From: Candidatus Kaiserbacteria bacterium
GTDB taxonomy: Bacteria; Patescibacteriota; Minisyncoccia; Phycocordibacterales; UBA2100
Length of the DNA stretch: 14,399 nucleotides
Direction of reading: 5' to 3'
Assembly (NCBI GenBank): GCA_003545515.1
Contig: DPYD01000070.1
Location: 892 to 15,290 of the forward strand
Both the position numbers and the translations under genes were made by a program. Below, piece after piece: positions 262 to 13,134 of the stretch. The stretch's first letter is position 1; each line of letters opens with the position of its first letter. The notes beneath the pieces were generated by a model that was not told the DNA's origin, ran no database searches, and was given only the letters and a program-made list of their open reading frames with translations.

Positions 262-1770
262 CTACACGGTAGATGTAGTAAAACATTCTAGAATATCCCC
301 CTGCGCTATTTCAAACACCGATTCTACCTGCGCGCCGAATTCGCTTCCTGCATCGACTCGCTCCACGTTCTGTTTGTGAGATTGAAGGTTCTTGAGTTTT
401 CCTATACCTATCGTGGTTTTGCGCCGCTGAATACGTACCGAGGCATTCCGCACGATATATCCTTCGGAGACGGAACCTCCGATTACGCGGGTATTCTTTT
501 GACTTGAGAATTGTTTTAGGATTCGCGCGCGCCCGACGATTTCCTCCACCTCTCGTTTGGGGCGAGTTTCTCGCAGGATCTCCTCGATGCGTTCGGTGAG
601 TTTGTATATTATGTCGAATGTTTCAATGGTAACGCCGCACTGACGAGCGCGTTCCTCAGCGGTTCTCTCCACGCCCACATTGAATCCGATGACGTTGACG
701 CGCGTTGGGCTTGCGGAGGCCGTTTTTACGTCATTCTCCGAAATATTGCCGACTCCCGATTGCACGATGCGCACAGATGAATGTTCATCGCCCATTCGTG
801 CGATTTCATGTTCAATAGCTTCAAGGGAGCCGGTCGTGTCTGCACGGATAACAATAGATAAAGCGAAGTGTCCGCCGGGCTCGGCATTCTCGGCGCTTGA
901 TGTTTGTCGGGAAGCAATGCCGGACTGTATGGCGATCGCATCCGGTCGGGCTTTTTCCGCCTCTCGTTTGTTCTTGTAGCTTGAAAATTCAGAACCGACC
1001 TCTGGGAGTTCATCGAATCCGGTGAGTCGTATTGGTGTCGAGAAATTTGCTTCGCGGATCGTAGACCCCGTATGGTCTTCCATTATGCGCACGGGGGAGA
1101 TGGCACTACCTGCGCGAACCGCCATGCCTTGCTTGAGGACCCCGTTCGTGATTATTAGGGTTGCCGCGATTCCGCGTCTTGTATCGCGATGCGCCTCTAC
1201 TACATATCCGGAGGCGGGAGGAATTGGGTCGCCCTTCAACTCGCGTAATTCTGCAACAAGAAGAATAAGGTCGAGGAGTTCGTCAACGCCGGCCCCTGTT
1301 TTTGCGGATATGGCGGTCCAGGGCACATCGCCCCCAAGCTTCTCAAGGAAGACTCCATGCTCCATGAGAGAGGATTGTGTGCGCTCGATGTTCGCGTTGG
1401 GTTTATCTATCTTATTTAATGCGACGACAAATGGTATGTCTACGCTTTTGATGCTTGCAAGCGCTTCCAAAGTTTGCGCTTTGACACCGTCGTCCGCGGC
1501 GACAACGAGAATTGCGATATCCGCAATAGTAGCACCGCGTGCACGGATAGCTCCAAACGCCGCATGACCCGGTGTGTCGATGAATGTGAGTCGTTTACCC
1601 TTGTGCGTTACTTCGTATGCGGCGACATGCTGGGTGATACCGCCTGCTTCTTTTTCGACGGTATTCGTTTTACGTATGAAATCGAGAAGCGTTGATTTTC
1701 CGTGGTCAACGTGTCCGAGGACGGCAACAATAGGAGGACGCTCTGTCAATTGTGGGATTCTTGCGATCAT
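262..1770 (-). CDS. infB: Translation initiation factor IF-2, short form
   Basis: IF2 is the GTPase that brings initiator tRNA to the 30S subunit and promotes 50S joining. The 502-residue product shows G1 GHVDHGKS (residues 19-26), switch I GGITQHVAAY (43-52), G3 DTPGHAAF (65-72), G4 NKID (119-122) and G5 SAKTG. These are followed by the beta-barrel domain and the IF2-specific C-terminal domains (FNVGVERTAEERA, then TIETFDIIYKLTERIEE). The long N-terminal region of E. coli IF2 is absent: the G domain begins almost at residue 1. I chose the ATG at 1770. An in-frame start at 1875 would add 35 hydrophobic residues unlike any IF2 and would read through the probable promoter. P-loop position 26 is Ser where Thr is usual. 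rbfA follows after 16 bp. Confidence 0.95.
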   Translation of the reverse strand: MIARIPQLTERPPIVAVLGHVDHGKSTLLDFIRKTNTVEKEAGGITQHVAAYEVTHKGKRLTFIDTPGHAAFGAIRARGATIADIAILVVAADDGVKAQTLEALASIKSVDIPFVVALNKIDKPNANIERTQSSLMEHGVFLEKLGGDVPWTAISAKTGAGVDELLDLILLVAELRELKGDPIPPASGYVVEAHRDTRRGIAATLIITNGVLKQGMAVRAGSAISPVRIMEDHTGSTIREANFSTPIRLTGFDELPEVGSEFSSYKNKREAEKARPDAIAIQSGIASRQTSSAENAEPGGHFALSIVIRADTTGSLEAIEHEIARMGDEHSSVRIVQSGVGNISENDVKTASASPTRVNVIGFNVGVERTAEERARQCGVTIETFDIIYKLTERIEEILRETRPKREVEEIVGRARILKQFSSQKNTRVIGGSVSEGYIVRNASVRIQRRKTTIGIGKLKNLQSHKQNVERVDAGSEFGAQVESVFEIAQGDILECFTTSTV

Positions 1771-2032: not shown

Positions 2033-2038
2033 TACACT
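2033..2038 (+). promoter_or_regulatory. Candidate -10 box for the cysteine desulfurase gene
   Basis: TACACT ends 7 nt before the ATG at 2046, so transcription would start at or next to the start codon. The hexamer 17 bp upstream, TTAGAA, is a poor -35 match. There is no Shine-Dalgarno sequence. Confidence 0.4.
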
Positions 2039-2045
2039 CTTCTGA

Positions 2046-3242
2046 ATGGGAATGTTCCGTAAGCGACGTATATACCTCGATTACGCCTCGGCTCCGCCGG
2101 TTTTACCGGAGGCACTCCGCGCTATGCGCGAGGCCGAGCATCTCATCGGAAATCCTGGCGCTATCCACGAAGAGGGTGTTGCGATGAGAGCCAAACTTGA
2201 AGACGCGCGAGCGCGGATAGCTGCGCTCCTCGGAATAAAGGCGCGCGAGATCGTTTTCACTTCCGGCCTTACCGAAAGCAACAATCTGGCCATTTTGGGT
2301 TTTGCGCGGAAATTGCTCTTGTCGGGCGGAAATCTCGATGATACTCATTGGATTGTGAGTGCAATCGAACACGATTCGGTGTTGGAATGTTTTGCGGAAA
2401 TCGAACGTCTTGGAGGAAGTGTCTCTCATGCAAATCCCGACATGTACGGCAGTATAAAGCCGCAGGAGATTGTGCGTTTGCTACGGAAAGAAACAGTTCT
2501 TGTTTCCGTTGGATGGGCGAATAATGAGATAGGGACAATCCAACCGCTCACGAAGATTGCTCACATACTGCGCGCGTATGAGAAAGAGCAGGGTACGATA
2601 GTGGCGCTCCATGCTGACGCGGGTCAGGCGCCGCTCTATCTTCCGACAATCGTTAATAGTCTCGGAGTCGACCTGCTCTCGTTTGGCGCGAACAAATTGT
2701 ACGGCCCACATGGTATCGGCGCGTTGTATATCGGGAGCCGCATGCTTGCCGGAGGGATAGCGCCTATTATCATGGGCGGCGCGCAAGAAAAGGGGATACG
2801 GGCTGGAACGGAAAGTGTCACGCTTGCCGCCGGTTTTGCGGCGGCGTTCGAGGTAGTTGCGCGCGAGCGCGATGCGGAGGCGAAGCGCCTCTCTGAACTG
2901 CGCGACACTCTCGTCCGAGAACTTTCTGCTGGCATTCCCGACCTTGTAATAAATGGAGATTTAAAACACGCTCTTCCGCACATGCTCAACATTTCCATTC
3001 CGAACATCTCGAGTGAATATATAGTGCTTGCGTTAGACAGAGAAGGTATTGCCATATCGACGAAAAGCGCATGCCGCGAAGGGGAGCAGGCCTCGCATGT
3101 AGTGGCTGAATTAGGAGGAGAATCTTGGCGCGCGAAGAACACTCTGCGCTTTTCGCTCGGCAAAGAAACGGCGCAAAGCGATGTAGAACGCACCGCGCAG
3201 GCCTTGCGGCAGACAGTAGTAGATTTTCAAACGCGCTCTTAA
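2046..3242 (+). CDS. Cysteine desulfurase (NifS/IscS family)
   Basis: This PLP enzyme converts cysteine to alanine and passes sulfur, as a persulfide, to acceptors for tRNA thiolation or Fe-S assembly. The 398-residue product is full length for the family. Visible landmarks: FTSGLTESNNLAI (71-83), EHDSVLE (108-114), NNEIGTIQP (159-167), HADAGQA (189-195), the PLP lysine K217 in ANKLYGPHGIGALY, QEKGIRAGTES (247-257), and the catalytic cysteine C343 in KSACREGEQASHVV. Two departures stand out: the opening motif is YLDYASAPP rather than the usual YLDNAATTP, and the His normally preceding the PLP lysine is N216. No scaffold (IscU/SufU) or thiouridylase (mnmA) gene is adjacent, so the sulfur acceptor cannot be read from context. 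An ATG two codons later (2052) is an alternative start. Confidence 0.93.
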   Translation: MGMFRKRRIYLDYASAPPVLPEALRAMREAEHLIGNPGAIHEEGVAMRAKLEDARARIAALLGIKAREIVFTSGLTESNNLAILGFARKLLLSGGNLDDTHWIVSAIEHDSVLECFAEIERLGGSVSHANPDMYGSIKPQEIVRLLRKETVLVSVGWANNEIGTIQPLTKIAHILRAYEKEQGTIVALHADAGQAPLYLPTIVNSLGVDLLSFGANKLYGPHGIGALYIGSRMLAGGIAPIIMGGAQEKGIRAGTESVTLAAGFAAAFEVVARERDAEAKRLSELRDTLVRELSAGIPDLVINGDLKHALPHMLNISIPNISSEYIVLALDREGIAISTKSACREGEQASHVVAELGGESWRAKNTLRFSLGKETAQSDVERTAQALRQTVVDFQTRS

Positions 3243-4099
3243 TTACCGTCTTCCTGATAGTGTGCGCCGGCGCAGACAGGTTCTGTAGCGATTTCCTCAT
3301 TCTGAACGAAGCGAATCCGCACGCCGAGCGTCTGCTCGTACGCATTCGAAAGTGTAGCCCGCGCCTCGAATGCATCTTCTCCGGCCTGCAATGTTCGAAC
3401 GTATTGAAGCGTTATTTCTGAAATAGAAGCCCGCGGTTCTTGTGGCGCGACAGACTCATCCAGTCGGGGCAAAGCAGGGTAGGCCTGCAGGTCTTTTGCG
3501 GACGGGAGAAAATCCCAGTACCAAATTCCCTGTACGGTTTTTACGCCGTGTCGCATTTCAATTTCGTGCCCGAGCCTCTCTTGGATTTGCGAGCGCAAAA
3601 TCTCATGTCGCTCTATCGACACATCACCATAGCTGGGCGGTGCGTCGATCGGTGGAGGTATCACTAAAGGGTCCCGCTCGAACTGCTCACGGAATGAACG
3701 GATAGTGTCGGCGGACGGTTCGCTCGGCGCGTGCCCTTGCTCTTGAGCGCGTAAGAAAGATTCTAGGACGTGATTATGCATCTCGCACATCACTCCTACT
3801 TCTTCATCCGAGGGTAAGAGTTCCGCAGGATTTCCCTCATAGAAGCGCTCGTCGGGGTCGCCGCGCGTGGGAGGAGCAAGCCATTGTTCTCTTTCACCCA
3901 TCACATACCACCCCACGTGTTCTGCCGTATCGGTCACAACGCCTCTGTGTAATGCTTCAATGCCATCGCGCCACGATGCGTCCGGCGGTATCTCGGCACT
4001 ATACGAAGGTTCCGCGTGTGCAAGAAATGACGCGAGAGCCGCTGCCGATAAGGGTTTAAGAATTTCTCCAATCTTCCTTTCGTTTGGACCCCTCTCCAT
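3239..4099 (-). CDS. Probable secreted protein with a JAMM-like metal motif
   Basis: I do not recognise the family firmly. From the ATG at 4099 the product has 286 residues; an ATG at 4117 would add six. Below, numbering follows the 292-residue form. The N-terminus has a basic segment, a hydrophobic stretch (PLSAAALASFLAHA, 22-35) and a plausible signal-peptidase site after SYSA (41), suggesting export. The middle contains CEMHNHVLES (H114, H116) and, further on, PPSYGDVS (S162, D165), with acidic residues upstream (E75 in VMGERE). HxH followed by PSxxD resembles the JAB/MPN (JAMM) metallopeptidase signature, but the spacing is enlarged by about 35 helical residues. The rest is rich in Glu, Arg and Pro. 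Its stop codon overlaps that of the desulfurase gene. The JAMM reading is tentative. Confidence 0.75.
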   Translation of the reverse strand: MERGPNERKIGEILKPLSAAALASFLAHAEPSYSAEIPPDASWRDGIEALHRGVVTDTAEHVGWYVMGEREQWLAPPTRGDPDERFYEGNPAELLPSDEEVGVMCEMHNHVLESFLRAQEQGHAPSEPSADTIRSFREQFERDPLVIPPPIDAPPSYGDVSIERHEILRSQIQERLGHEIEMRHGVKTVQGIWYWDFLPSAKDLQAYPALPRLDESVAPQEPRASISEITLQYVRTLQAGEDAFEARATLSNAYEQTLGVRIRFVQNEEIATEPVCAGAHYQEDGN

Positions 4100-4107
4100 G
4101 CAGTTTG

Positions 4108-4113
4108 AGAATA
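4108..4113 (-). promoter_or_regulatory. Candidate -10 box for the secreted-protein gene
   Basis: On the minus strand TATTCT ends 8 nt before the ATG at 4099, overlapping a second hexamer TATGCT (4118-4113). A GGAGG (4123-4119) is only 1 nt from the alternative ATG at 4117 and about 20 nt from 4099, so it fits neither start as a ribosome binding site. This decided my preference for 4099. Confidence 0.3.
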
Positions 4114-4168
4114 GCATACCTCCGGTTTTTGCGTGAGACTGATAAGAGTGGTATATTGCATTCCATGA

Positions 4169-4288
4169 ATCCCGTTAGAAGTAGCGGACGATGGTATACA
4201 CAAGAATCTTATACAGGTCGCAATTATGAGCCATAATCGAGCAGGGTAAGAAGTACACTGTACTTCCGCGCCCTACTTCTAACGGGAT
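4169..4288. repeat. Structured intergenic element with a 16-bp perfect inverted repeat
   Basis: ATCCCGTTAGAAGTAG (4169-4184) is perfectly complementary to CTACTTCTAACGGGAT (4273-4288), separated by 88 nt. The right arm covers the first two bases of the protease-like gene's ATG. Inside are three smaller inverted repeats: GTATA 4194-4198 with 4210-4214, ATTATG 4223-4228 with 4232-4237, and a 17-nt palindrome at 4250-4266. The word AGAAGTA occurs twice on each strand across the element. As RNA it could form a multi-branched fold; as DNA it could be a small palindromic mobile element. Confidence 0.7.
4250..4266. promoter_or_regulatory. Operator-like 17-bp palindrome
   Basis: GAAGTACACTGTACTTC is perfectly palindromic around a central C (8+1+8). 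It contains TACACT (4254-4259), a -10-like hexamer on the plus strand about 27 nt before the downstream ATG. A one-base centre is too tight for an RNA hairpin loop without unpairing, but typical of a dimeric repressor site. An operator overlapping the promoter of the protease-like gene is therefore plausible. The regulator is unknown. Confidence 0.4.
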
Positions 4289-5120
4289 GAACATTGAGCA
4301 ACTCACTAAATCGCAACTCGTCCTTCTGGCACTTCTCTTGTCGTTCGTCACCTCTATAGCGACGGGCATTGTCACTGTAAGTCTCATGGATCAGGCGCCA
4401 CCGGTCATCGCGCAGACTGTAAACCGCGTCGTTGAACGCACCATTGAAACGGTCGCTCCCGCAAGCCAAGCGGCTGCCTCGGCTACGGTGCGCGAGCGCA
4501 CTGTTATTGTGCGAGAATCAGAGCTTATTTCGCAGGCGGTCACGAAAGTTTCTCCGAGTATCGTACGTATTTATAGCAATTCTTCCGAAAAGGCGACATT
4601 TTTAGGACTCGGCATCGTCATGAGTGCAGACGGCGTCATTGTAAGTGACTCTTCAGTATTCGGCGCATCGTCGACAACGGCAATCGCGCTTCTTGATGGC
4701 ACGCGTTTGAACGCCTCTCTAACGAGTCGGGATGCGGCGACGGGTCTTGCGTTCCTTCAAGCGACATCGACGGATGAAGCGCAGGTCACATGGAAACCTG
4801 CGGTTGTCACGGGTAGTAATCCTATCCTAGGCCAGACAGTTATAGCTCTTTCGGGACGAACGGTCGTACGTATAGAGGACGGCATAGTTACCGCGCTTAT
4901 TCCGGGGGAAGGGGAATCTCCGGCGAGTTACGCCGTTGACACAAACATTTCTCCTGATTCCGTTATGGCGGGTTCTCCCTTGATAAATACCAATGGTGAG
5001 ATCGTCGGTGTAAGTACAAGCATCTCGCGCGCGTCATCCCCGAAGGGGTTTCTTGCGTCATCGGCGCTCATACAGCAGGCCGCTGGCGATACTCAAGAGT
5101 CTCCAAAAACTTCAGAATAG
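4287..5120 (+). CDS. Membrane-anchored HtrA/trypsin-like protein lacking the catalytic triad
   Basis: The 277-residue product has a short N-terminus, one membrane segment (about 11-33), an Ala/Thr/Glu-rich linker (about 36-75), and a trypsin-like (HtrA-type) domain from about 80 to 265, predicted outside the membrane. No PDZ domain follows. Compared with HtrA landmarks, the His motif (usually TNNHV) reads SDSSV, giving S123; the Asp motif (usually TDLAVLK) reads TGLAFLQ, giving G153; the Ser motif (usually GNSGGPL) reads VMAGSPL, giving A228. All three catalytic residues are therefore substituted while the scaffold is kept (SPSIVRI, GLGIVMSADGVIVS, GQTVIALSG, LINTNGEIVGV). I infer a pseudoprotease with a binding or scaffolding role. 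Alignment by eye leaves some uncertainty about the exact columns. It is transcribed divergently from the secreted-protein gene. Confidence 0.85.
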   Translation: MNIEQLTKSQLVLLALLLSFVTSIATGIVTVSLMDQAPPVIAQTVNRVVERTIETVAPASQAAASATVRERTVIVRESELISQAVTKVSPSIVRIYSNSSEKATFLGLGIVMSADGVIVSDSSVFGASSTTAIALLDGTRLNASLTSRDAATGLAFLQATSTDEAQVTWKPAVVTGSNPILGQTVIALSGRTVVRIEDGIVTALIPGEGESPASYAVDTNISPDSVMAGSPLINTNGEIVGVSTSISRASSPKGFLASSALIQQAAGDTQESPKTSE

Positions 5121-5213
5121 AAGACAAAGGAGAGCGGCGGAGAAAATGCCAATCTCGCGTCCCGCGCTTTTATCGGTTATACTGCATGTGGTATAGATAA
5201 CAGATATAGGTAA

Positions 5214-5219
5214 TATATT
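5214..5219 (+). promoter_or_regulatory. Candidate -10 box for the Clp unfoldase gene
   Basis: TATATT ends 6 nt before the ATG at 5226. The same hexamer with nearly the same following bases precedes the gene at 8109. Another -10-like TATACT lies further upstream at 5178-5183 and would give a leader of about 35 nt. No CIRCE-type heat-shock inverted repeat is present in 5121-5225. Confidence 0.4.
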
Positions 5220-5225
5220 TCGTAT

Positions 5226-7922
5226 ATGGCCCCCTTTCATAATTACACTACGAAAGCGAAAGAGGCGATACACCGCGCGCATCAACTCGCGGTCGAACGC
5301 GGGCACAATCAAGTATCCACCGCGCATCTCCTCGCGGCGCTCCTCATGCAGGAGGAGTCCATGGTTCTGCCGATGCTTGAACAGCTGGAAATAGACATTG
5401 CCCACTTCACAGATTCTGTCTTAGAACTCATCGAGGGTGGTTCGGGAAATACCGCCGTGTCTCCGTCGTTCCAGCTCTATTTAACGCCGGAACTCGTGCG
5501 TGTCTTTGAAGCGGCACCCCGAATAAGCGCATCATTCAATGACCAGTTCGTCTCGCCGGAACATCTGCTCCTGGGTCTTATCGAACATCCCGGCCCGGCC
5601 TCTGATGTTCTGACGCGTTTTCGCATTGACAGAGCCGCACTCGCGCGCGTCCTTTCCGACATAAAAGAAGGGAAGATACGCGATGTAGATGAGCCGAAAA
5701 AGCCACGGGCATTGAGTCGCTTTGCGCGCTCGCTTACAGATCGTGCACGAGAAAACAAGCTTGACCCCGTTATCGGGCGCGATACGGAAATAATACGTGT
5801 TGTGCAAATACTCTCGCGTCGCACAAAGAACAACCCAATTTTGATAGGTGAGGCGGGCGTGGGAAAGACGGCTGTTGCCGAAGGGTTGGCTCAGCGCATC
5901 GCTTCTGGAGATGTGTCGGAATCCTTGCGTGGAAAAGAGCTTGTCCAGCTTGATCTTGGACTTCTCATAGCAGGCACCAAATATCGCGGAGAATTCGAAG
6001 AGCGTCTGAAAGCCGTTATGCGGGAAGTGGAACGTTCGGAAGGGAAGATAATCCTTTTCATAGACGAACTTCATACGCTCGTGGGTGCTGGCGCCGCGGA
6101 AGGATCCATGGATGCATCCAACATGCTTAAGCCCGCCCTCGCACGCGGGGAAATCCGCGTCATAGGAGCCACGACCCTTAAGGAATTTCAGCGACATATT
6201 GAACACGATCCCGCGCTTACGCGTCGGTTCCAGCCCGTCTACGTCAATGAGCCGTCCATTGAGGATGCCATAGCAATATTGCGCGGTCTGAAAGAGCGCT
6301 ACGAGCTGTACCATGGTGTCCAGATCACAGATGATGCAATTGTTGCCGCCGTCCAGCTTTCCACCCGCTACATCACGGAAAGATTTCTTCCCGACAAAGC
6401 CATAGACTTGATAGATGAAGCGTCGTCCGCTCTGCGTCTTTCCCTTGAGAACAAACCGCCGATTCTCGAAGAGGCGCATCGGAAGATAACGCGGCTTGAG
6501 ATAGAGCGCGAAGCGCTGAAGAAAGAGGCGGAAGGGGCTGAAGGAAAGGCGCGGACCCGCGTGCGTTCCATAGAGAAAGAAGTAGCCGATTTGCGAGATT
6601 CCACGCGAGAGCTAGAACTCAAATGGAAGAATGAGAAAGAGACACTCTCGGAGATGAAGCGCGGTAAAAGTGAACTTGATAAAGCGCGCGTTGATGCCGA
6701 CGCCGCAGAAAGCGTGGCTGATCTTACAAAGGCCGCAGAGATACGCTACGTTAAGATACCGACTCTTGAGAAAGAGGTAGATGCCGCGACAAAACGTTTG
6801 AAGAAGCTTCAGGCAACGCGGCGGATACTGCGGGAAGAAATAACCGCAGAGGATATCGCCGAAGTTGTCTGTCGTTGGACAGGTGTCCCTGTAGCCCGCA
6901 TGCTCGAAGAAGAGGCGGAGAAACTCTCACGTATGGAGGCGGAATTAAAGAAGCGCGTAGTCGGGCAAGATGAGGCGGTCCAGAAAGTATCTGACGCTAT
7001 CAAAAGAAGTCGTGCGGGTATAGCAGATCCAAATCGTCCTGTCGGAAGCTTTCTCTTTTTGGGTCCTACCGGCGTTGGGAAGACAGAATTGACGCGCGCG
7101 CTTTCGGGATTTCTTTTTGATACCGAGAAATCGCTCATTCGTGTTGATATGTCGGAGTATATGGAGAAACACTCGATTTCAAAGATGATAGGTTCACCCC
7201 CGGGCTACGTGGGGTACGATGAGGGCGGAGGATTGACAGAGCTTGTACGTCACCGACCATACTCCGTTATCCTGTTTGACGAGATAGAAAAGGCGCACCC
7301 AGAAATTTTCAACATTCTCCTACAGGTCTTGGATAACGGGCGGCTCACAGATGCCAAAGGACGCACTGTTAATTTCAAGAACACCGTTATCATTATGACC
7401 TCCAATATTGGCGCCGAACACATAGACAAAATGTCGGGCCTTGGTTTTGGAAGTGGAGTTTCGCGGACCGAGATAGAGCGTTATGAGCACGTGAAGGAAA
7501 AAGTCATGAGCTCGCTCAAGGAGTTTTTCCGTCCGGAGTTTTTGAACCGACTCGATGAAATAGTGCTCTTCAACATCCTCGCTCCTGACGCGATCGGGAG
7601 CATAGTTCGTATGCAGGTTGAGCTCGTCGCTAAACGTCTGGAAGATAAAAACATCAAACTTTTGCTTTCCGAGGGTGCGCTAGGGCATCTCGCTAAAGAG
7701 GGCTACAACCCTCAATATGGCGCTCGTCCTCTTAAGCGCCTCATTCAGACAAAAATAATGACGCCGGTTGCGAACATGATGGTAACAAGAGGGGTCATGG
7801 AGGGTGGTTCTGTTTCAGTTGATTTAAAAGATGGTGAATTTACGTTCGACGTACGCAAAGGCCCCGAAAGGGTTCGTGGAGCACGGTCTCGAGCTCGAAC
7901 AAAGACGGTCACTGCGGTGTAG
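5226..7922 (+). CDS. clpB: ClpB/ClpC-type AAA+ unfoldase
   Basis: This hexameric ATPase threads aggregated or tagged proteins through its pore. In the 898 residues I see an N-domain with two Clp repeats (5-40 and about 80-145). AAA-1 has Walker A GEAGVGKT (208-215), Walker B ILFIDE (276-281) and pore loop KYRG near 252. A long coiled-coil middle domain spans about 410-530. AAA-2 has Walker A GPTGVGKT (613-620), Walker B VILFDE (681-686) and pore loop GYVG (660-663), followed by a D2 C-domain ([10 protein letters not shown], 831-840). The middle domain has ClpB length (ClpC's is about half). However, the segment after TSNIGA carries GLGF (738-741) in an insertion that ClpC has for docking ClpP and E. 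coli ClpB lacks. The C-terminal tail is basic. Whether it is a disaggregase, a protease partner, or both is open. Confidence 0.93.
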
Positions 7923-7948
7923 ATCCTCGCTCATTTTCTCGATTTAGG

Positions 7949-7954
7949 TATAAT
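7949..7954 (+). promoter_or_regulatory. tRNA-Tyr -10 box
   Basis: Consensus TATAAT ends 10 nt before the mature tRNA-Tyr 5' end, so initiation would fall a few bases upstream of the tRNA. No convincing -35 is visible at 16-18 bp spacing. Confidence 0.6.
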
Positions 7955-7964
7955 CAATCTCGTT

Positions 7965-8047
7965 GCGCCGGTGGTAGAGCAGTCAATTACGACGCGCTGT
8001 AGACGCGTTGCCTTCGGGCTACGGGGGTGCAAATCCCTCCCGGCGCA
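7965..8047 (+). tRNA. tRNA-Tyr (GTA), with unusual G37, A18 and G55
   Basis: The fold is class II. The acceptor GCGCCGG pairs perfectly with 8040-8046, followed by discriminator A8047. The D-stem is GTA/TAC, the anticodon stem ACGCG/CGCGT has loop CTGTAGA (anticodon GTA at 7999-8001), a GCC-TTCG-GGC variable arm follows, and the T-stem is GGGGG/CCCTC. CCA is not encoded. Three bases are odd. Position 37 is G (8002), where bacterial tRNA-Tyr normally has an A that is isopentenylated. Position 55 in the T-loop is G (8029; loop TGCAAAT) instead of the near-universal U. Position 18 in the D-loop is A (7981) instead of G, so the usual G18-U55 tertiary pair is changed at both ends. Position 19 (G) and 56 (C) are normal. 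Confidence 0.9.
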
Positions 8048-8097
8048 CAAAGATGATATGATTGCAGTTGGTCGAAAGGCGTTTATTTAATCACTAG

Positions 8098-8103
8098 TAT
8101 ATT
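8098..8103 (+). promoter_or_regulatory. Candidate -10 box for the EF-Tu-domain-2-like gene
   Basis: TATATT ends 5 nt before the ATG at 8109. The context resembles the Clp gene's start (TATATTT followed by TATGG). No Shine-Dalgarno sequence is present. This box may also serve the pilin gene 20 bp downstream. Confidence 0.4.
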
Positions 8104-8108
8104 TGCAT

Positions 8109-8357
8109 ATGGAGAAACCAATCGGCACTGTCACGCACTGGTATGACAAGATCAGTGTTGCCGTCGTAAGGTTGACTGGAAAGCTCTCTAAGGGCGACAA
8201 GGTCAAGATAAAGAAAGGAGACGAGGAATTTGAGGATACCGTCTCTTCTCTCCAGATCGATCACAAAGATGTCTCATCTGCGAAGAAGGGAGACGACGCT
8301 GCAATCAAATTCTCGGAGCGTGCAAAGGAAGGTGCGTCCGTATTTTTGGAGAAGTAA
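8109..8357 (+). CDS. Small EF-Tu domain-2-like beta-barrel protein
   Basis: The 82-residue product (MEKPIGTVTHWYDKISVAVV at the start) has the alternating pattern of the translation-factor domain 2 barrel: a GTVTHWYDKISVAVVRL strand pair, the turn KLSKGDKVKI, then SSLQIDHKDVSSAKKGDDAAIKF, ending ASVFLEK. This matches proteins annotated as 'translation elongation factor-like', found as stand-alone genes in archaea and CPR bacteria, whose role is unsettled. It is Lys-rich (16 of 82) and has no GTPase domain. I chose the ATG at 8109 over a TTG at 8103 because the latter falls on the last base of the -10-like box. It probably forms a two-gene unit with the pilin gene. A molecular role cannot be inferred here. 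Confidence 0.8.
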   Translation: MEKPIGTVTHWYDKISVAVVRLTGKLSKGDKVKIKKGDEEFEDTVSSLQIDHKDVSSAKKGDDAAIKFSERAKEGASVFLEK

Positions 8358-8377
8358 CTTCTTAACCCATATCAAGC

Positions 8378-8815
8378 ATGTCTCATAGAAAGACCGAAAC
8401 CGTCTTAGTGTCTTTTTTAGTTGTATTTTTAACTGCTATTCCTCTTTTTGCATTTGCGGCATTGCCATATAAAATCGTTCCCTGTGATGGCTTAAATTGC
8501 ACCATCTGCGACATAGCGACTCTTGCGCAAAATGTTCTCAATACCGGCATTTATATCGCCATATTCCTCTCCGCGGTACTCTTTGCATGGGCGGGATGGA
8601 AGTATGTGACGGCGGGAGGCAATCCAGGAAAAGCGACTCAAGCTCGTGAGGTTTTCACAAACGTGCTTATTGGACTCGTCATTATACTCGCGGGCTGGCT
8701 CGTCGTGGATACTCTCATGAAGACGCTTGTGAAGGACAGCGACGGATTTGGTCCGTGGAATAAGATATGTACGTATCAAACTGACTCGGCCGGACGTATT
8801 CGTGGAGGCATTTGA
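8378..8815 (+). CDS. VirB2/TrbC-like pilin
   Basis: The 145-residue product has a Sec-type signal peptide (residues 1-28: basic MSHRKTE, long hydrophobic core, likely cleavage after AFA). A short Cys-containing segment follows (C36, C41, C44), then two hydrophobic helices: about 54-76 (GIYIAIFLSAVLFAWAGWKY) and about 93-115 (VLIGLVIILAGWLVVDTLMK). They are joined by a short polar loop with the motif VTAGGNPGKATQAREV. Two helices with a G-N-P-rich loop after a signal peptide is the VirB2/TrbC type IV secretion pilin plan, commonly encoded singly in CPR genomes. No other secretion gene is in the window, so surface-pilus assembly is inferred only from the family. The spacing of 20 bp suggests cotranscription with the upstream gene. 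The stop is TGA. Confidence 0.75.
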   Translation: MSHRKTETVLVSFLVVFLTAIPLFAFAALPYKIVPCDGLNCTICDIATLAQNVLNTGIYIAIFLSAVLFAWAGWKYVTAGGNPGKATQAREVFTNVLIGLVIILAGWLVVDTLMKTLVKDSDGFGPWNKICTYQTDSAGRIRGGI

Positions 8816-8834
8816 ACGAGGTAAGCCCTGAGAA

Positions 8835-8863
8835 TTGACCGACAGGTATCAATAGGGTATTGT
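8835..8863 (+). promoter_or_regulatory. rpmG promoter (leaderless geometry)
   Basis: TTGACC (8835-8840), a 17-bp spacer and TATTGT (8858-8863) form a good sigma-70-type promoter. The -10 ends 8 nt before the rpmG ATG at 8872, so transcription should begin within a base or two of the start codon. Confidence 0.65.
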
Positions 8864-8871
8864 GCTCCTTT

Positions 8872-9030
8872 ATGTCCCAAGACCAACTCATAAAATTGGC
8901 GTGTCAAAAGTGCTCGCGCACCAATTATTGGTCGCGCAAGAACAAGAAGCTCGTCGAGCGCAAAATAGAGCTCAAAAAATACTGCAAATGGTGCAGGGCA
9001 CATACTCTACATAAAGAAACAAAGAAGTAG
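8872..9030 (+). CDS. rpmG: Large-subunit ribosomal protein bL33
   Basis: The 52-residue product carries the L33 pattern: KLACQKCSRTNYWSRKNKK, a basic strand, then KYCKWCRAHTLHKETKK. Two Cys-x-x-Cys pairs (C11/C14 and C38/C41) form a zinc ribbon, so this is the zinc-binding type. L33 sits near the E site of the 50S subunit. The ATG at 8872 is set by the L33 N-terminus and by the promoter directly upstream. There is no Shine-Dalgarno sequence. Bases 8982-8997 near its 3' end can pair along 16 positions (one G-U) with 9032-9047 just after the stop. A degenerate second copy follows at once. Confidence 0.92.
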   Translation: MSQDQLIKLACQKCSRTNYWSRKNKKLVERKIELKKYCKWCRAHTLHKETKK

Positions 9031-9049
9031 TCCTGCACTATTTGCAGGA

Positions 9050-9219
9050 GGAGGGGGTCGGGGAACAAGAAGGTTCTCCGTGGAGGAAAGAGTGGGAAAA
9101 CCGTGGGCGCCCAGATTTTGTAGCGTGGAGCGCTAACAAAATCCAAGTACTCTTGGAGTGTTTCCCAGAACTGCTGGTGGTGCAGGGCACACACTGTTCA
9201 TAAGGAATCTAAAAAGTAG
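9050..9219 (+). pseudogene. Decayed second copy of rpmG
   Basis: The 3' end (9177-9219) encodes WCRAHTVHKESKK plus a TAG stop, against WCRAHTLHKETKK plus TAG in rpmG. About 35 of 42 bases match, and the protein changes are conservative. A 14-bp exact direct repeat (TGGTGCAGGGCACA) lies at 8989-9002 and 9178-9191. Further upstream, GGTCGGGGAACAAGAAG (9056-9072) resembles the rpmG segment around 8929-8948. Between these, extra sequence (about 9095-9170) includes a strong hairpin, 9114-9125 with 9131-9143, holding one bulged A. No start codon or first CxxC pair remains, and an in-frame TAG lies at 9121. I read it as a tandem duplicate broken by an inserted palindrome. The mild protein-level divergence suggests it was once functional. 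Confidence 0.6.
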
Positions 9220-9306
9220 CTTCAAGCTTCCAGCTTGGGAGTTTCGAGAAAAATCTTTTGAGGTTTGTCTATTTCGCTATAAGCTAGAAGCTGGCAGCTA
9301 AAAGCT
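9218..9306. repeat. Imperfect 19-bp inverted repeat of AGCTT-type sequence
   Basis: AGCTTCAAGCTTCCAGCTT (9218-9236) pairs with 9288-9306 at 16 of 19 positions, with 51 nt between. The word GCTTCCAGC recurs at 13137-13145 and 13151-13159. It is probably a dispersed intergenic repeat of this genome. The -10-like hexamer of tRNA-Trp lies just inside the right arm. Confidence 0.5.
9278..9283 (+). promoter_or_regulatory. Candidate tRNA-Trp -10 box
   Basis: TATAAG lies 30 nt before the mature tRNA 5' end. The -35 region (around TTTTGA at 9256-9261) is weak. Confidence 0.35.
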
Positions 9307-9313
9307 GTGCAGA

Positions 9314-9385
9314 GGGCCCATAAGCTCAATGGTAAACTGCCGGTCTCCAAAACCGGACTTCTAGGTTCGAATCCTAGTGGGCCCG
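9314..9385 (+). tRNA. tRNA-Trp (CCA)
   Basis: The acceptor GGGCCCA pairs perfectly with 9378-9384, followed by discriminator G9385. The anticodon stem CCGGT/ACCGG holds loop CTCCAAA with anticodon CCA at 9347-9349. The T-arm is CTAGG-TTCGAAT-CCTAG. The D-stem has one C12-A23 mismatch, and CCA is not encoded. A36-A37-A38 is present, the recognition signature for the isopentenyltransferase MiaA. The miaA stop codon on the other strand begins only two bases beyond the tRNA 3' end. Confidence 0.95.
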
Positions 9386-9386
9386 C

Positions 9387-10316
9387 CTACGACCTTATCC
9401 ATCGTTTGACGTGTTTTAAGATATTAGATTTTCTGTTTGGGTTAAACCATGTAATTTCCTTGTTGCGCCTCCAGTAAGTCATTTGCCGCTTCGCGTAGCG
9501 GCGTATCTCTCGAAAGATTTCTTCTTCGAATTCCCGCCGAGACACCTTCCCTTGCAAGAGGCGGGCAAGTGAGCGGTATTCAAGTCCAAGTGCTTCCATG
9601 CGCTTGTACGACAGTCCTCGTGTATGCAAACGCTTCGCCTCCGCAACCATCCCTCGGCTAATTCGTGCGAATAAGCGAATAGTTATCTGACGCTCAAGCA
9701 TCTTCATCTTAGGAGAAACTCCGATCCAGAGTACCTTATAACGATTTACGAAATCGTTAATGTTCCCATAACGACTTCGTAAATCGTTATTTCTGGAGAC
9801 CGCGCCGAACATTTCGGCGATTTCAACCGCACGAATGAGGCGGCGTTTGTTGTGCGGATCTATCGTTTTCGCGCGGCGCGAGTCGCGCTTTTTGAGGAGA
9901 GCAAAAAGCTCGGCGGCACTCTTTTTCTCAAGTTGCGCGCGCAATTTCGGATTTGCAGGGACATTCGGGAGAGTCACTCGCCCCATGAGTGTGTCGATAT
10001 AAAATCCCGTGCCTCCCGCTATTATCGGCAAGAGTCCTCTACGAAGTGTCGTAGCAATAACTTTTCGGCCACGCACTAAAAAATCGTGCGCGGTGAACGT
10101 CTTTTTCGGAGAGACGACGTCTAAAAGATGATGTCGAATACCGCGCATTTCGCGTTTTGTTATTTTGCCGGTTCCAATATCAAGACCTCGGTACACTTGG
10201 CGGCTGTCAGCCGATATCACCTCGCCACCGAATTTCCGCGCAAGCTCGACCGCCAAAGCGCTTTTGCCGGACGATGTCGGGCCGACGATAACTAGCACTT
10301 TTTGTTTCTTTGGCAT
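9387..10316 (-). CDS. miaA: tRNA dimethylallyltransferase
   Basis: MiaA transfers a dimethylallyl group to N6 of A37 in tRNAs that read UNN codons. The 309-residue product shows P-loop GPTSSGKS (12-19), the signature SADSRQVYRGLDIGTGK (35-51) with the catalytic-region Asp37, GGTGFY (101-106), the DPHNKRRLIRAVEI helix (153-166), and the C-terminal YAKRQMTYWRR segment. I chose the ATG at 10316. A start at 10391 would run antisense through tRNA-Leu. Residues about 176-194 read as two similar 9-10-residue units (NNDLRSRYGN, then INDFVNRYK) encoded by a pair of DNA palindromes; this looks like an in-frame insertion in a variable region before the conserved hydrophobic strand VLWIGV. The flanking tRNA-Trp and tRNA-Leu genes both carry its A36-A37-A38 target. 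Confidence 0.95.
   Translation of the reverse strand: MPKKQKVLVIVGPTSSGKSALAVELARKFGGEVISADSRQVYRGLDIGTGKITKREMRGIRHHLLDVVSPKKTFTAHDFLVRGRKVIATTLRRGLLPIIAGGTGFYIDTLMGRVTLPNVPANPKLRAQLEKKSAAELFALLKKRDSRRAKTIDPHNKRRLIRAVEIAEMFGAVSRNNDLRSRYGNINDFVNRYKVLWIGVSPKMKMLERQITIRLFARISRGMVAEAKRLHTRGLSYKRMEALGLEYRSLARLLQGKVSRREFEEEIFREIRRYAKRQMTYWRRNKEITWFNPNRKSNILKHVKRWIRS
9738..9790. repeat. Pair of palindromic elements inside miaA
   Basis: Element 1 has perfect 9-bp arms, TAACGATTT 9739-9747 with 9751-9759, around ACG. Element 2 has 10-bp arms with one mismatch, 9768-9777 with 9781-9790, around CGT. The two elements are about 80% identical and offset by 30 bp, so the reading frame is kept. They encode the repeated peptide units at MiaA residues about 176-194. 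Confidence 0.75.
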
Positions 10317-10324
10317 AGCTGGCG

Positions 10325-10331
10325 TATTATA
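10325..10331. promoter_or_regulatory. Shared symmetric -10 for miaA and tRNA-Leu
   Basis: TATTATA (10325-10331) reads as TATTAT on the plus strand, with TTGTTT 17 bp upstream at 10302-10307 as a -35, toward tRNA-Leu at 10340. It reads as consensus TATAAT (10331-10326) on the minus strand, ending 9 nt before the miaA ATG. One AT-rich box thus appears to serve both directions. The minus-strand -35 (TTCCGC) is weak and would lie within tRNA-Leu. Confidence 0.55.
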
Positions 10332-10339
10332 AGCATTCT

Positions 10340-10422
10340 GCTGGAGTGGCGGAATGGTATACGCGAACGACTCAAAATCGTTTGAGCGCAAGCTCGTGTG
10401 GGTTCAAGTCCCACCTCCAGCA
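10340..10422 (+). tRNA. tRNA-Leu (CAA)
   Basis: The fold is class II. The acceptor GCTGGAG pairs perfectly with 10415-10421, followed by discriminator A10422. The D-arm GCG/CGC has a normal GG in its loop. The anticodon stem AACGA/TCGTT has loop CTCAAAA (anticodon CAA, 10373-10375), the variable arm is GAGC-GCAA-GCTC, and the T-arm GTGGG-TTCAAGT-CCCAC is normal. CCA is not encoded. A36-A37-A38 marks it as a MiaA substrate. It is divergent from miaA, 23 bp away. Confidence 0.96.
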
Positions 10423-10443
10423 CTGCTTCCCCTGCCTCTATAC

Positions 10444-10472
10444 TTCAAACTCCGTACATCATACGTTATACT
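10444..10472 (+). promoter_or_regulatory. parB promoter (leaderless geometry)
   Basis: TTCAAA (10444-10449), a 17-bp spacer and TATACT (10467-10472) lie just upstream. The -10 ends 6 nt before the ATG at 10479, so the mRNA should start at or very near the start codon. No Shine-Dalgarno sequence is present. Confidence 0.6.
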
Positions 10473-10478
10473 TGTCTC

Positions 10479-11477
10479 ATGTCCGGTTACTATGGCGATT
10501 CCATTTTTTGGGTTGAGGTGGACCGAATAAAACCAAATCCTTTTCAACCGCGTAAGAATTTCGACGAAACTTCTCTCGCGTCTCTCGCGGAGTCCATTCG
10601 TCAGTACGGTGTTCTTCAGCCGCTTACGGTCACACGCAAGGAAATAGAACGTCCAGGTGAAGGAATACTGGTTGAGTATGAGCTTATTGCAGGAGAAAGG
10701 CGTCTGCGTGCCGCAAAACTCGCCGGGGTTGCCTCGGTTCCGGTCGTTATAAGGAGTGGCGAGGATGATGATAGGATGAAACTGGAAATTGCCATTATCG
10801 AAAACCTCCAGCGTGAAGACCTGAATCCGATAGATCGCGCGAAAGCATTCAACCGTCTCTATAAAGAATTCGGTCTCAAACATACGGAGATAGGAAAGCG
10901 TGTGGGAAAAAGTCGCGAGTATGTCTCAAATACACTGCGCATCCTTTCACTTCCTGAAGACATGCAGAATGCGCTTGCAGAAGGAAATATTAGCGAGGGT
11001 CATACTCGCCCTCTCCTCATGCTTATGGATCGCACCGAGGAGCAGAAAACGCTTTTTCAGGAGATACTTACGCGCAAACTCACGGTGAGAGATTCAGAAC
11101 AAGTTGCTCGCCGCATTGCGACGGAGCGCGCGCGTAAGCCCGATCTCACGCCTGAATTGCTTCTCTTGGAGCGCGAACTGACGGACACATTGGGGACGCG
11201 CGTGCGCATAGAAAAGAAAGATCAGGGAGGGAAGGTTCTGATAGATTTTTTCTCGGTGGACGATCTTGCGCATATTCGCTCCCTTCTCTCTCGTGAACAG
11301 AAACCAAAGAAGGTTGGGCCAGAAGAGATTGAGGATGAAACTCTTCTCGAGATTCCCGCAGAGCCGGCGTCGGCGCCAGAAGAAGCAGGGGTTCCGGATA
11401 CGGAAATTAAATCGTCGGCCGAGAAAGAAAAAACGTCCGAAGACGATCTATACTCCGTACGCAATTTCAGTGTTTAG
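10479..11477 (+). CDS. parB: Chromosome-partitioning protein ParB (Spo0J/Noc family)
   Basis: ParB is a CTP-dependent DNA clamp that loads at parS and spreads, working with ParA and SMC to segregate origins. In the 332 residues I see the N-terminal VDRIKPNPFQPRKNFDE (about 15-30), the box GERRLRAAK (72-80), the second CTP-site motif ENLQREDLNPIDRA (108-121), a helix-turn-helix (KHTEIGKRVGKSREYVSNTL, 134-153), and a dimerisation-type C-terminal region rich in Glu and Lys. I placed the start at 10479, where the ParB domain begins just after the promoter. The open frame extends upstream to 10398, but that overlaps tRNA-Leu. No parA is adjacent, and I found no copy of the common parS consensus in the window. 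Confidence 0.93.
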   Translation: MSGYYGDSIFWVEVDRIKPNPFQPRKNFDETSLASLAESIRQYGVLQPLTVTRKEIERPGEGILVEYELIAGERRLRAAKLAGVASVPVVIRSGEDDDRMKLEIAIIENLQREDLNPIDRAKAFNRLYKEFGLKHTEIGKRVGKSREYVSNTLRILSLPEDMQNALAEGNISEGHTRPLLMLMDRTEEQKTLFQEILTRKLTVRDSEQVARRIATERARKPDLTPELLLLERELTDTLGTRVRIEKKDQGGKVLIDFFSVDDLAHIRSLLSREQKPKKVGPEEIEDETLLEIPAEPASAPEEAGVPDTEIKSSAEKEKTSEDDLYSVRNFSV

Positions 11478-11482
11478 GGAGG

Positions 11483-11506
11483 ATGCTCGTATGCTCGTAT
11501 GCTTGT
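11483..11506. repeat. Three tandem 8-bp units
   Basis: ATGCTCGT, ATGCTCGT and ATGCTTGT follow each other directly, six bases after the parB stop and before the convergent rel gene ends at 11539. This gap holds no clear terminator hairpin. Confidence 0.6.
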
Positions 11507-11538
11507 TGCAGGCCCCGAACGGTACGCGGCCAGAATCT

Positions 11539-13122
11539 CTAGCTCTTCTTTCGCTCCTGTGCGGAGAGCGCGACGCGAATGTGTTTTTTCGCCATGTTGG
11601 TCTTTGCCATATCGTGCCATTTGCGCGAAGGGCGTCCCGCGGGTTTCGTGATAATTTCCACCATGTCGCCGTTGTGGAGCGGCGTATCGATCGCGACTAA
11701 TTTGCCATTCACGCGCGCCCCAGACATTTTGTTTCCCAGATCGGAGTGCACCGCGTAGGCGAAATCAATCGGGATCGCGTCTGTGGGAAGATCGATGACA
11801 TCTCCTTTCGGCGTGAATACGAAAACACGATGGCTGAAAAAGTCGGTCTTCAATGTGTTGATATACTCCTTCGACTCTTTTGATGTCGTAGCGAGCGCGA
11901 GCTCCTTTATCCATCCTGGTACGTCACCTGCCTCGGTTGGGGTGTCGGAACATATCACTCCCTTTGCATCTGTACTCGCCAGCTCCTTTGCCGTAGCTCC
12001 TCTTCCAAGGAGTGGAAAGAATTGGCGCACCCACTCCAGGCCCCCGCGTTTGCCTTCTTTGGTGCTCCTTTGTGTTTCTTCTTTATACGTAAGATGCGAA
12101 GCGATACCGTATAGCGCATCGCGATGCATATCTTCGGTTCGCAACTGCATCTCCAAAGCACCACCATCTCCGGTGTAAACGGTAGTGTGAATACTCTGAT
12201 AGCCATTCGGTTTTGGAAACGCGATGTAATCTTTAATCTTTCCCGGAACGGGCCGCCAATGAGAATGAATAATGCCCAGACCGGTGTAACAGTCGGAAAG
12301 TGAGGGAAAAATTACGCGGAGTGCAAGAATGTCGTATATCTTTGTGATGTCCCAATCCTTGCGTTCCAATTTGCGAAAAAGACTGTAAATACCCTTGACA
12401 CGCGTTTCCGTTCGGAAATTGCGTAATTCGGCTTCAGCAAATTCGCGCTTCAGAACTTTCTCGACTTTTTCAAGTCGACTCTCATTCTCGCGCTTACGTT
12501 CTTTAAGCAGAGCCCGCGTCTTTTCGTGTTCCTTGGGATACGCATGAGGGAACGCGGCATCCTCTAACTCCTGCTTGGCTACAGACATGCCGAGCCGATC
12601 CGCTATAGGAGCATATATTTCCAATGTCTCCAGCGCTATCCTCTGGCGCTTATCTTCGCGTGGCACATACTCAAGCGTACGAGCGTTGTGTAGGCGATCC
12701 ATCAGTTTGATAATGAGAACTCGAATGTCACGCGCTGTTGCGGCGAAGAGTTTACGTAAAGATTCGGTGTGGCGCTCGAGTCCTCGATAGCGTAAAGCGC
12801 CCAATTTTGTGACACCCTCTACAAGCAAGAACACCTCGCCGCCGAACTGTTCTTCTATGTCTTTCGGTCTTACACCCGCATCCTCGATGGTGTCATGGAG
12901 AAGCCCTGCCGCAATAGCTTTAGAATCCATGCCTGCATCAGCAAGAAGATAGCCGACTTCCGCCGGATGGGTGAAGTAGGAGGCGCCGGAATAGCGCTTC
13001 TGCTCTTTGTGCGCTTCTCGCGAGAACTCATAGGATCTCGTTATCAAATCAACATCTTTCGCATCCTTGCTGGACATCGCGTCTAGGATGTCTTTGAGGG
13101 AGCGCGGTTCAAGGGAGGTCAT
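11539..13122 (-). CDS. Rel/SpoT-type (p)ppGpp synthetase/hydrolase, lacking C-terminal regulatory domains
   Basis: This enzyme makes and degrades the starvation alarmone (p)ppGpp. In the 527 residues I see the HD hydrolase domain (H52 in FTHPAEVG, HD at 76-77, ED at 80-81, D142/N146 in MDRLHNART). The synthetase domain has RVKGIYSLFRKLERK (241-255), DYIAFPKPNGYQSIHTTV (298-315) and E324 in EMQLRT. A TGS domain runs from about 431 to 495 (FVFTPKGDVIDLP to NGDMVEI). Both active sites look intact. The chain ends about 30 residues after TGS, so the helical, zinc-finger/RIS and ACT domains of typical 700-750-residue Rel proteins are missing. A linker insertion of perhaps 30 residues (about 350-425) lies before TGS. 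TATGCT ends 6 nt upstream of the ATG, with no Shine-Dalgarno sequence. Confidence 0.92.
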   Translation of the reverse strand: MTSLEPRSLKDILDAMSSKDAKDVDLITRSYEFSREAHKEQKRYSGASYFTHPAEVGYLLADAGMDSKAIAAGLLHDTIEDAGVRPKDIEEQFGGEVFLLVEGVTKLGALRYRGLERHTESLRKLFAATARDIRVLIIKLMDRLHNARTLEYVPREDKRQRIALETLEIYAPIADRLGMSVAKQELEDAAFPHAYPKEHEKTRALLKERKRENESRLEKVEKVLKREFAEAELRNFRTETRVKGIYSLFRKLERKDWDITKIYDILALRVIFPSLSDCYTGLGIIHSHWRPVPGKIKDYIAFPKPNGYQSIHTTVYTGDGGALEMQLRTEDMHRDALYGIASHLTYKEETQRSTKEGKRGGLEWVRQFFPLLGRGATAKELASTDAKGVICSDTPTEAGDVPGWIKELALATTSKESKEYINTLKTDFFSHRVFVFTPKGDVIDLPTDAIPIDFAYAVHSDLGNKMSGARVNGKLVAIDTPLHNGDMVEIITKPAGRPSRKWHDMAKTNMAKKHIRVALSAQERKKS

Positions 13123-13128
13123 GCCCCC

Positions 13129-13134
13129 AGCATA
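13129..13134 (-). promoter_or_regulatory. Candidate -10 box for the rel gene
   Basis: On the minus strand TATGCT ends 6 nt before the ATG at 13122, the same geometry as parB. The -35 region falls in the GCTTCCAGCG repeat and is weak. Confidence 0.4.

Follow-up and report, generated by a model that had tools for sequence, protein, structure and literature searches.

Extended −10 promoters beside start codons and loss of the 16S anti-Shine-Dalgarno sequence point to leaderless initiation in an order of Patescibacteria

Leaderless genes are widespread in bacteria and account for up to 46.1% in Deinococcus radiodurans (PMC3160421). In Deinococcus, −10 motifs lie 6–7 bp from the open reading frames of nearly one third of genes (PMC12340547). 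The passages cited from these two papers do not cover Patescibacteria. Scarcity of Shine-Dalgarno (SD) genes combined with a 16S rRNA lacking CCUCC has been described in single or few genomes of Candidatus Wolfebacteria, Campbellbacteria, Absconditabacteria and Peregrinibacteria (PMC10783764). Most CPR have also lost era (PMC10582724).

Here we analyzed a 14,399-nt stretch of a Candidatus Kaiserbacteria genome (the window), which matches part of contig 10 of that genome at every base; twelve starts are readable in it and topA runs off the end. The starts and their upstream elements are as follows, Nx denoting the spacer between the −10 hexamer and the start codon.

245, − strand: start of rbfA, no adjacent −10
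262..1770, − strand: infB (IF2), no adjacent −10; TATACT about 35–40 nt upstream (about 1805–1815)
2033–2038, + strand: −10 TACACT of the cysteine desulfurase gene (Pfam PF00266), N7 to ATG 2046
4113–4108, − strand: −10 TATTCT, N8 to ATG 4099, of a gene whose protein has no Pfam match ("secreted protein" in the first-pass annotation)
4287..5120, + strand: trypsin-like gene (PF13365), a counter-example with no adjacent −10
5214–5219, + strand: −10 TATATT of the Clp ATPase gene (Pfam AAA_2, Clp_N), N6 to ATG 5226
8098–8103, + strand: −10 TATATT of an EF-Tu domain-2-like gene (PF03144 below cut-off), N5 to ATG 8109
8378..8815, + strand: T4SS-pilin-like gene (PF18895), a counter-example with neither −10 nor SD, 20 nt past the EF-Tu-like gene
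8835–8840, + strand: −35 TTGACC of rpmG, 17 bp from its −10
8858–8863, + strand: −10 TATTGT of rpmG (bL33, PF00471), N8 to ATG 8872
10331–10326, − strand: −10 TATAAT of miaA, N9 to ATG 10316
10467–10472, + strand: −10 TATACT of parB, N6 to ATG 10479
13134–13129, − strand: −10 TATGCT of rel (PF04607), N6 to ATG 13122

The first-pass annotation had listed these same eight −10 hexamers, and each was recovered at its position and spacer. TANNNT with a spacer of N5–9 is therefore found at 8 of 12 readable starts, for which the binomial P(≥8 of 12) is 1.6e-6 when the source-genome background of 25.8/285 starts per shifted N5–9 window is used. The annotation's claim that the window has no SD at normal spacing also holds (0/12 readable starts); among SD-like words sought within 40 nt, the only ones are GGAGG, at a distance of 19 nt from ATG 4099, and GGAG, at 26 nt from ATG 8378. 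Its claim of a −35 at 17 bp for both rpmG and parB stands for rpmG, where TTGACC is at exactly that spacing, but the parB candidate TTCAAA (17 bp) matches at 4/6 bases only. The distance of TATACT from the infB start probably reflects a short leader. Both in the window and in G046, a genus-mate with 58% GC (locus L266), this TATACT sits 6 nt before an out-of-frame ATC/ATT well 5' of the ATG, and the short leader is possibly conserved between the two. Separately, a perfect 16-nt inverted repeat, ATCCCGTTAGAAGTAG (4169–4184 / 4273–4288), ends at the trypsin-like gene's ATG. The 14-nt core of this repeat, CCCGTTAGAAGTAG, recurs in three further source-genome loci (L028, L037, L253) and also in L049/L112, and the element is a small dispersed repeat.

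The source genome (717 kb, 79% complete) was sampled as stretches from 40/84 contigs totalling 357,664 bases. Genes were called with a home-made hexamer-based caller that is blind to upstream sequence, and a start was excluded if a contig end lay within 60 nt or the upstream sequence contained N; the EM motif search and the cross-genome comparison also excluded non-ATG starts and genes <240 nt. A TANNNT peak at −8 to −16, on which the first-pass annotation had staked its proposal, is present genome-wide and is modal at N6. At this spacing TANNNT precedes 44/285 source-genome starts against a background of 5.2 per position in shifted windows, and at N5–9 it precedes 93/285 against 25.8. The corresponding counts in G046 are 51/276 against 2.0 and 108 against 9.6. 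The EM search, seeded or unseeded, returns TGnTATAAT in both genomes with a modal spacer of N6 and most spacers at N6–9; the N6 weight is 0.37 in the source genome and 0.41 in G046, and the share of ATG starts carrying the motif (gamma) is 0.44 and 0.51, respectively. Counting strict hexamers only, the excess at ATG starts is 25% and 38%. The source genome thus bears the mark of TA-led genes, a TA-like signal about 10 bp before the start, genome-wide and above chance.

Could such a signal arise by chance in AT-rich intergenic DNA, or from the calling of starts? The high AT content of several genomes and the crudeness of the caller would favor this, yet the controls argue consistently against it. 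In the first 196 kb, TANNNT at N5–9 is found at 58/156 starts against 16.6 +/- 3.5, with a maximum of 27, in 200 dinucleotide shuffles. In-frame internal ATGs, one taken at random per gene, show no N6 peak (3/271 in the source genome, 1/237 in G046). Together with the shifted windows, and with a signal that reaches its greatest strength at 58% GC, in G046, and comes from a caller blind to upstream sequence, these results make chance or artefact hardly credible. Because the caller is home-made, start errors rather dilute the −10 signal. About half of the called starts have no recognizable adjacent −10 (4/12 in the window). Position −1 shows a strong preference for T or C even at starts without an adjacent −10, T being found in 77/148 of these in the source genome and 60/137 in G046.

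The element has the grammar of a promoter. T1, A2 and T6 of the hexamer are invariant, and its single modal spacer equals the usual distance from −10 to +1. The TG of an extended −10 stands ahead of the hexamer in 33/88 cases in the source genome and 35/103 in G046, with about 6 expected. At 16–18 bp, −35-like hexamers are found in 27/103 cases in G046 against 5 at control spacers; the source genome gives a marginal 17/88 against 12. Conservation was followed most widely for parB, using 30 loci from the genus, the source parB included, of 44 orthologues found among 49 genomes searched. TANNNT at N5–9 is kept in 29/30 of these orthologues against 2.1 in shifted windows, and in the remaining one TATACT stands 6 nt ahead of another ATG, located upstream in the same frame. 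The hexamer columns carry 1.0–2.0 bits across the 30 orthologues, five of the six reaching at least 1.8, and most of the 25 columns 5' of the hexamer carry ≤0.5 bits, the TG region excepted. What is conserved at parB is TGnTATAMT, not general AU-richness. For miaA, TATAAT at N9 is kept in three relatives (L289, L290, L299) and absent from several others; rpmG has TATAGT at about N9–N11 in 2/4 relatives, and no adjacent −10 was seen for Clp in G046. Conservation of the −10 as a promoter is thus found for parB, the gene sampled widely, and in part for miaA.

These observations also bear on an alternative in which the TA-rich hexamers are an AU-rich translational enhancer or standby site within a leadered mRNA, for example bound by S1, as with the A-rich leaders of Bacteroidota. 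AU-rich leaders are a known non-SD device in the literature, and an S1-like protein was found in all 26 genomes surveyed for translation factors, every match falling below the full-length rpsA cut-off. An enhancer would, however, hardly be expected to display −10 grammar, with invariant T1, A2 and T6, an extended TG, a modal spacer and, in G046, −35-like hexamers at 16–18 bp, nor to keep TGnTATAMT alone at parB. We regard it as improbable. A promoter placed so that transcription would start at or beside the ATG, as the first-pass annotation proposed, is borne out by the spacing, the genome-wide enrichment, the extended −10 and the parB conservation.

SD words show no comparable enrichment. In the source genome, AGGAG, GGAGG or GAGGT is found at 10 of 285 starts against a background of 9.0, and in G046 at 15 against 11.4. 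A small SD-like residue persists in G046, with SD5 in 13 "first" genes against a background of 5.0 and AGGAG or GGAGG 3–9 nt upstream of 11/277 starts. The same analysis applied to G226, a positive control with a canonical tail, gives SD5 at 19/105 against 2.2. A few genes with a perfect SD occur in anti-SD-less genomes (L263, L200, L203, L204, L205, L206; L241 and L256 in the source genome), among them hisIE-like and F420-ligase-like genes, and are perhaps recent acquisitions. Same-strand neighbors overlap by exactly 4 nt in 16/207 pairs of the source genome and 17/208 of G046; these downstream genes seldom carry a −10, which suggests reinitiation. The first-pass annotation had called leaderless initiation the default; this fits about half of the ATG starts, mainly of genes with their own promoter, but close-set genes often lack both signals.

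The first-pass annotation had proposed inspecting the 3' end of the 16S rRNA for an anti-SD sequence, and the outcome goes beyond its expectation, as the anti-SD is gone from the genus and from the sampled order. The 16S of the source genome lies outside the assembly, and its tail was taken from the genus, where all 24 tails examined read TGGAWTCATTC. The same pattern appears in 45 records labelled Candidatus Kaiserbacteria, Taylorbacteria, Adlerbacteria, Nomurabacteria or Paceibacterota. The order was sampled with 148 genomes, and a relaxed pattern detects the 3' end of a 16S in 97 of them. Neither CCTC nor CTCC, and hence no CCTCC, is present in the 60 order tails examined in full (30/41 family tails and 30/97 order tails), and none of the 97 native-looking order tails is canonical. 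A canonical tail was found in 1/148 order genomes, on contig C6 of G197; contig C2 of the same genome carries a variant tail, and the C6 copy is likely contaminant or foreign. The pattern used for canonical tails works, since it was found in 86/192 genomes across the phylum. In the class outside the order both tail states occur along with intermediates: 12 of 22 tails have CACCTCC, 2 have CTCC left and 8 have lost it, although the class-level pattern disfavors canonical tails and these 22 are therefore not a census. Neither CCUCC in the 16S nor an excess of AGGAGG-like words before starts, the two marks of canonical SD initiation, is thus found here.

In three same-genus 16S genes (L005, L007, L010) the sequence gives way to something unrelated near the 3' end, resembling a 16S intron. 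We considered a new structure in the variant tail and rejected it. A short hairpin can form just after 79/108 variant tails (42.5 in shuffled sequence) but also after 40/42 canonical tails (16.1), and being common to both it is probably an ordinary precursor hairpin. In the canonical genomes of the set examined (L040–L069, L116–L145 and L146–L175, variant and canonical), the post-tail hairpin pairs the anti-SD with AAGGAG or AGGGAG.

A further alternative is a mixed system, in which some genes are leaderless and the rest use an SD-like motif matching the altered 16S tail. G046 gives some encouragement: 5-mers complementary to the tail occur in −20..−4 at 31/277 starts against 13.6 in shifted windows, and GAAT is among the words enriched at starts without a −10. 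This excess is weak and unlocalized, however. GAAT has no sharp position, can arise inside −10 hexamers and emerged from a scan of 256 words, unlike AGGAG in the canonical G226, which peaks sharply. The source genome, with the tail taken from the genus, shows no signal (36/285 against 33.4), leaving an alternative SD matched to the new tail unsupported there. We judge a mixed system unlikely, a shade more so than the enhancer.

ATG starts of genes ≥240 nt were also compared across genomes. Seven genomes of the order (the source genome, G046, G007, G071, G174, G187 and G155) have an adjacent −10 excess of 16–38%, and their SD5 excess lies between −2 and 2%. Four relatives with canonical tails (G392, G226, G241, G358) have a −10 excess of 6–27% with the N6 peak present, and an SD5 excess of 3–15%. 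Within the same class, G435 (CACCTCC tail) shows neither a −10 nor an SD excess, and G413 (tail lost) shows a 12% −10 excess with no N6 peak. Since the N6 peak is also found in relatives with canonical tails, leaderless use does not depend on having lost the anti-SD: it is common to the order and its SD-using relatives, while the absence of SD tracks the absence of the anti-SD. For G007 and G174, 75 and 80 starts, respectively, were called after capping of the training ORFs. Some small genomes contain genes of about 12–13 kb (L268–L273 in G007, L220–L226 in G392), big enough to derail caller training.

Translation factors were surveyed in 26 genomes chosen beforehand: 16 order members, for 14 of which the genome's own variant tail had been observed, and 10 relatives with canonical tails. 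bS21 exceeds the cut-off in 0/16 order genomes against 8/10 canonical-tail relatives, with weak sub-threshold matches in 7/16 order genomes. The Bacteroidota-type arrangement, an anti-SD that is present but sequestered together with a conserved bS21, is accordingly not what is found, the anti-SD being absent and bS21 over the cut-off in none of the 16. Other candidates were discarded. IF3 is present in 25/26 genomes (15/16 order, 10/10 canonical), being absent from G007, which speaks against IF3 loss, and the S1-like proteins do not separate the two groups. Era as a driver of the tail change fares no better: a full-length match was found only in G341 of the 26, itself canonical-tailed, and Era does not separate the groups because it is missing from most canonical relatives too. 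Four other genomes exceed the Era cut-off with two matches in one long frame, which we take to be EngA/Der-like.

The motif, its spacing, the parB conservation, the SD absence and the tail replacement across the sampled order are established at the level of sequence. On this basis we consider it highly probable that leaderless initiation from extended −10 promoters dominates promoter-proximal genes and that the order has abandoned SD pairing. The final T of the sigma70-type extended −10 (TGnTATAAT) lies modally 6 and mostly 6–9 nt from the start codon, and in the proposed mechanism RNA polymerase would accordingly start at, or a few nt from, the A of the ATG and produce a leaderless mRNA; we infer that the exact 5' ends fall at the ATG. 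This would be the main mode for promoter-proximal genes of the Candidatus Kaiserbacteria-like genus. Genes that closely follow another and lack their own promoter would probably have their translation coupled to that of the preceding gene. SD:anti-SD pairing has evidently been dropped, since the 3' end of the 16S carries TGGAWTCATTC in place of TGGATCACCTCC, a tail that cannot pair with AGGAGG. With the anti-SD lost from the rRNA, protein synthesis must begin by another route, and the 5'-terminal AUG may be recognized through fMet-tRNA and IF2, on 30S or 70S; the 70S or modified 30S pathway that the first-pass annotation took the pattern to imply may be that route. We lean slightly toward a broader reading, in which the whole order (about 90 family labels sampled) dropped SD:anti-SD pairing in one ancestral step. 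The tail would have become a conserved A/U-rich TGGAWTNATTC, bS21 would have decayed and start selection would have come to rely on −10-adjacent leaderless promoters together with translational coupling, so that leaderless initiation would be the default on a specialized ribosome.

In bacteria, leaderless initiation normally serves as a secondary pathway on ribosomes that have retained the anti-SD. If the present reading is true, a large lineage without an anti-SD and with promoters abutting its starts is a natural experiment on start choice without pairing, and would inform the roles of the 16S tail and bS21. In practice, gene finders that expect an SD may mis-call starts here, and TANNNT at N6–9 could be used to set them. 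In the open literature that we searched, no study of leaderless genes in Patescibacteria came up, and none that connects leaderless genes with CCUCC loss or documents such a loss across an order. Earlier work had described leaderless genes and a small number of CPR genomes lacking CUCC; the pairing of the two and the order-wide anti-SD loss are apparently new.

Compared with described systems, the starts studied here resemble the TA-led genes of Deinococcus-Thermus and Actinobacteria, with TANNNT about 6–7 bp before the open reading frame, interpreted there too as a promoter giving leaderless mRNA, and a similar share of genes (PMC3160421, PMC12340547). D. radiodurans, however, keeps an SD (GGAG) motif beside its −10 motif (PMC12340547), whereas here SD words do not rise above background and the 16S has lost its anti-SD. 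The SD-poor genomes and the implication of bS21 around the 16S tail recall the SD-blind ribosomes of Bacteroidota such as Flavobacterium johnsoniae, but there the anti-SD is kept and sequestered by bS21, bS18 and bS6, whereas here the rRNA no longer contains it, and bS21 is either absent or too divergent to reach the cut-off (PMC8710568, PMC9976891). Organisms in which SD genes are scarce and the 16S lacks CCUCC (PMC10783764, PMC6107228) share both features with the present order. The passages cited from PMC10783764 cover just one or two CPR genomes in each phylum, drawing no link to promoters in CPR; the present order adds to this an order-wide census, a conserved replacement tail and its pairing with −10-adjacent starts.
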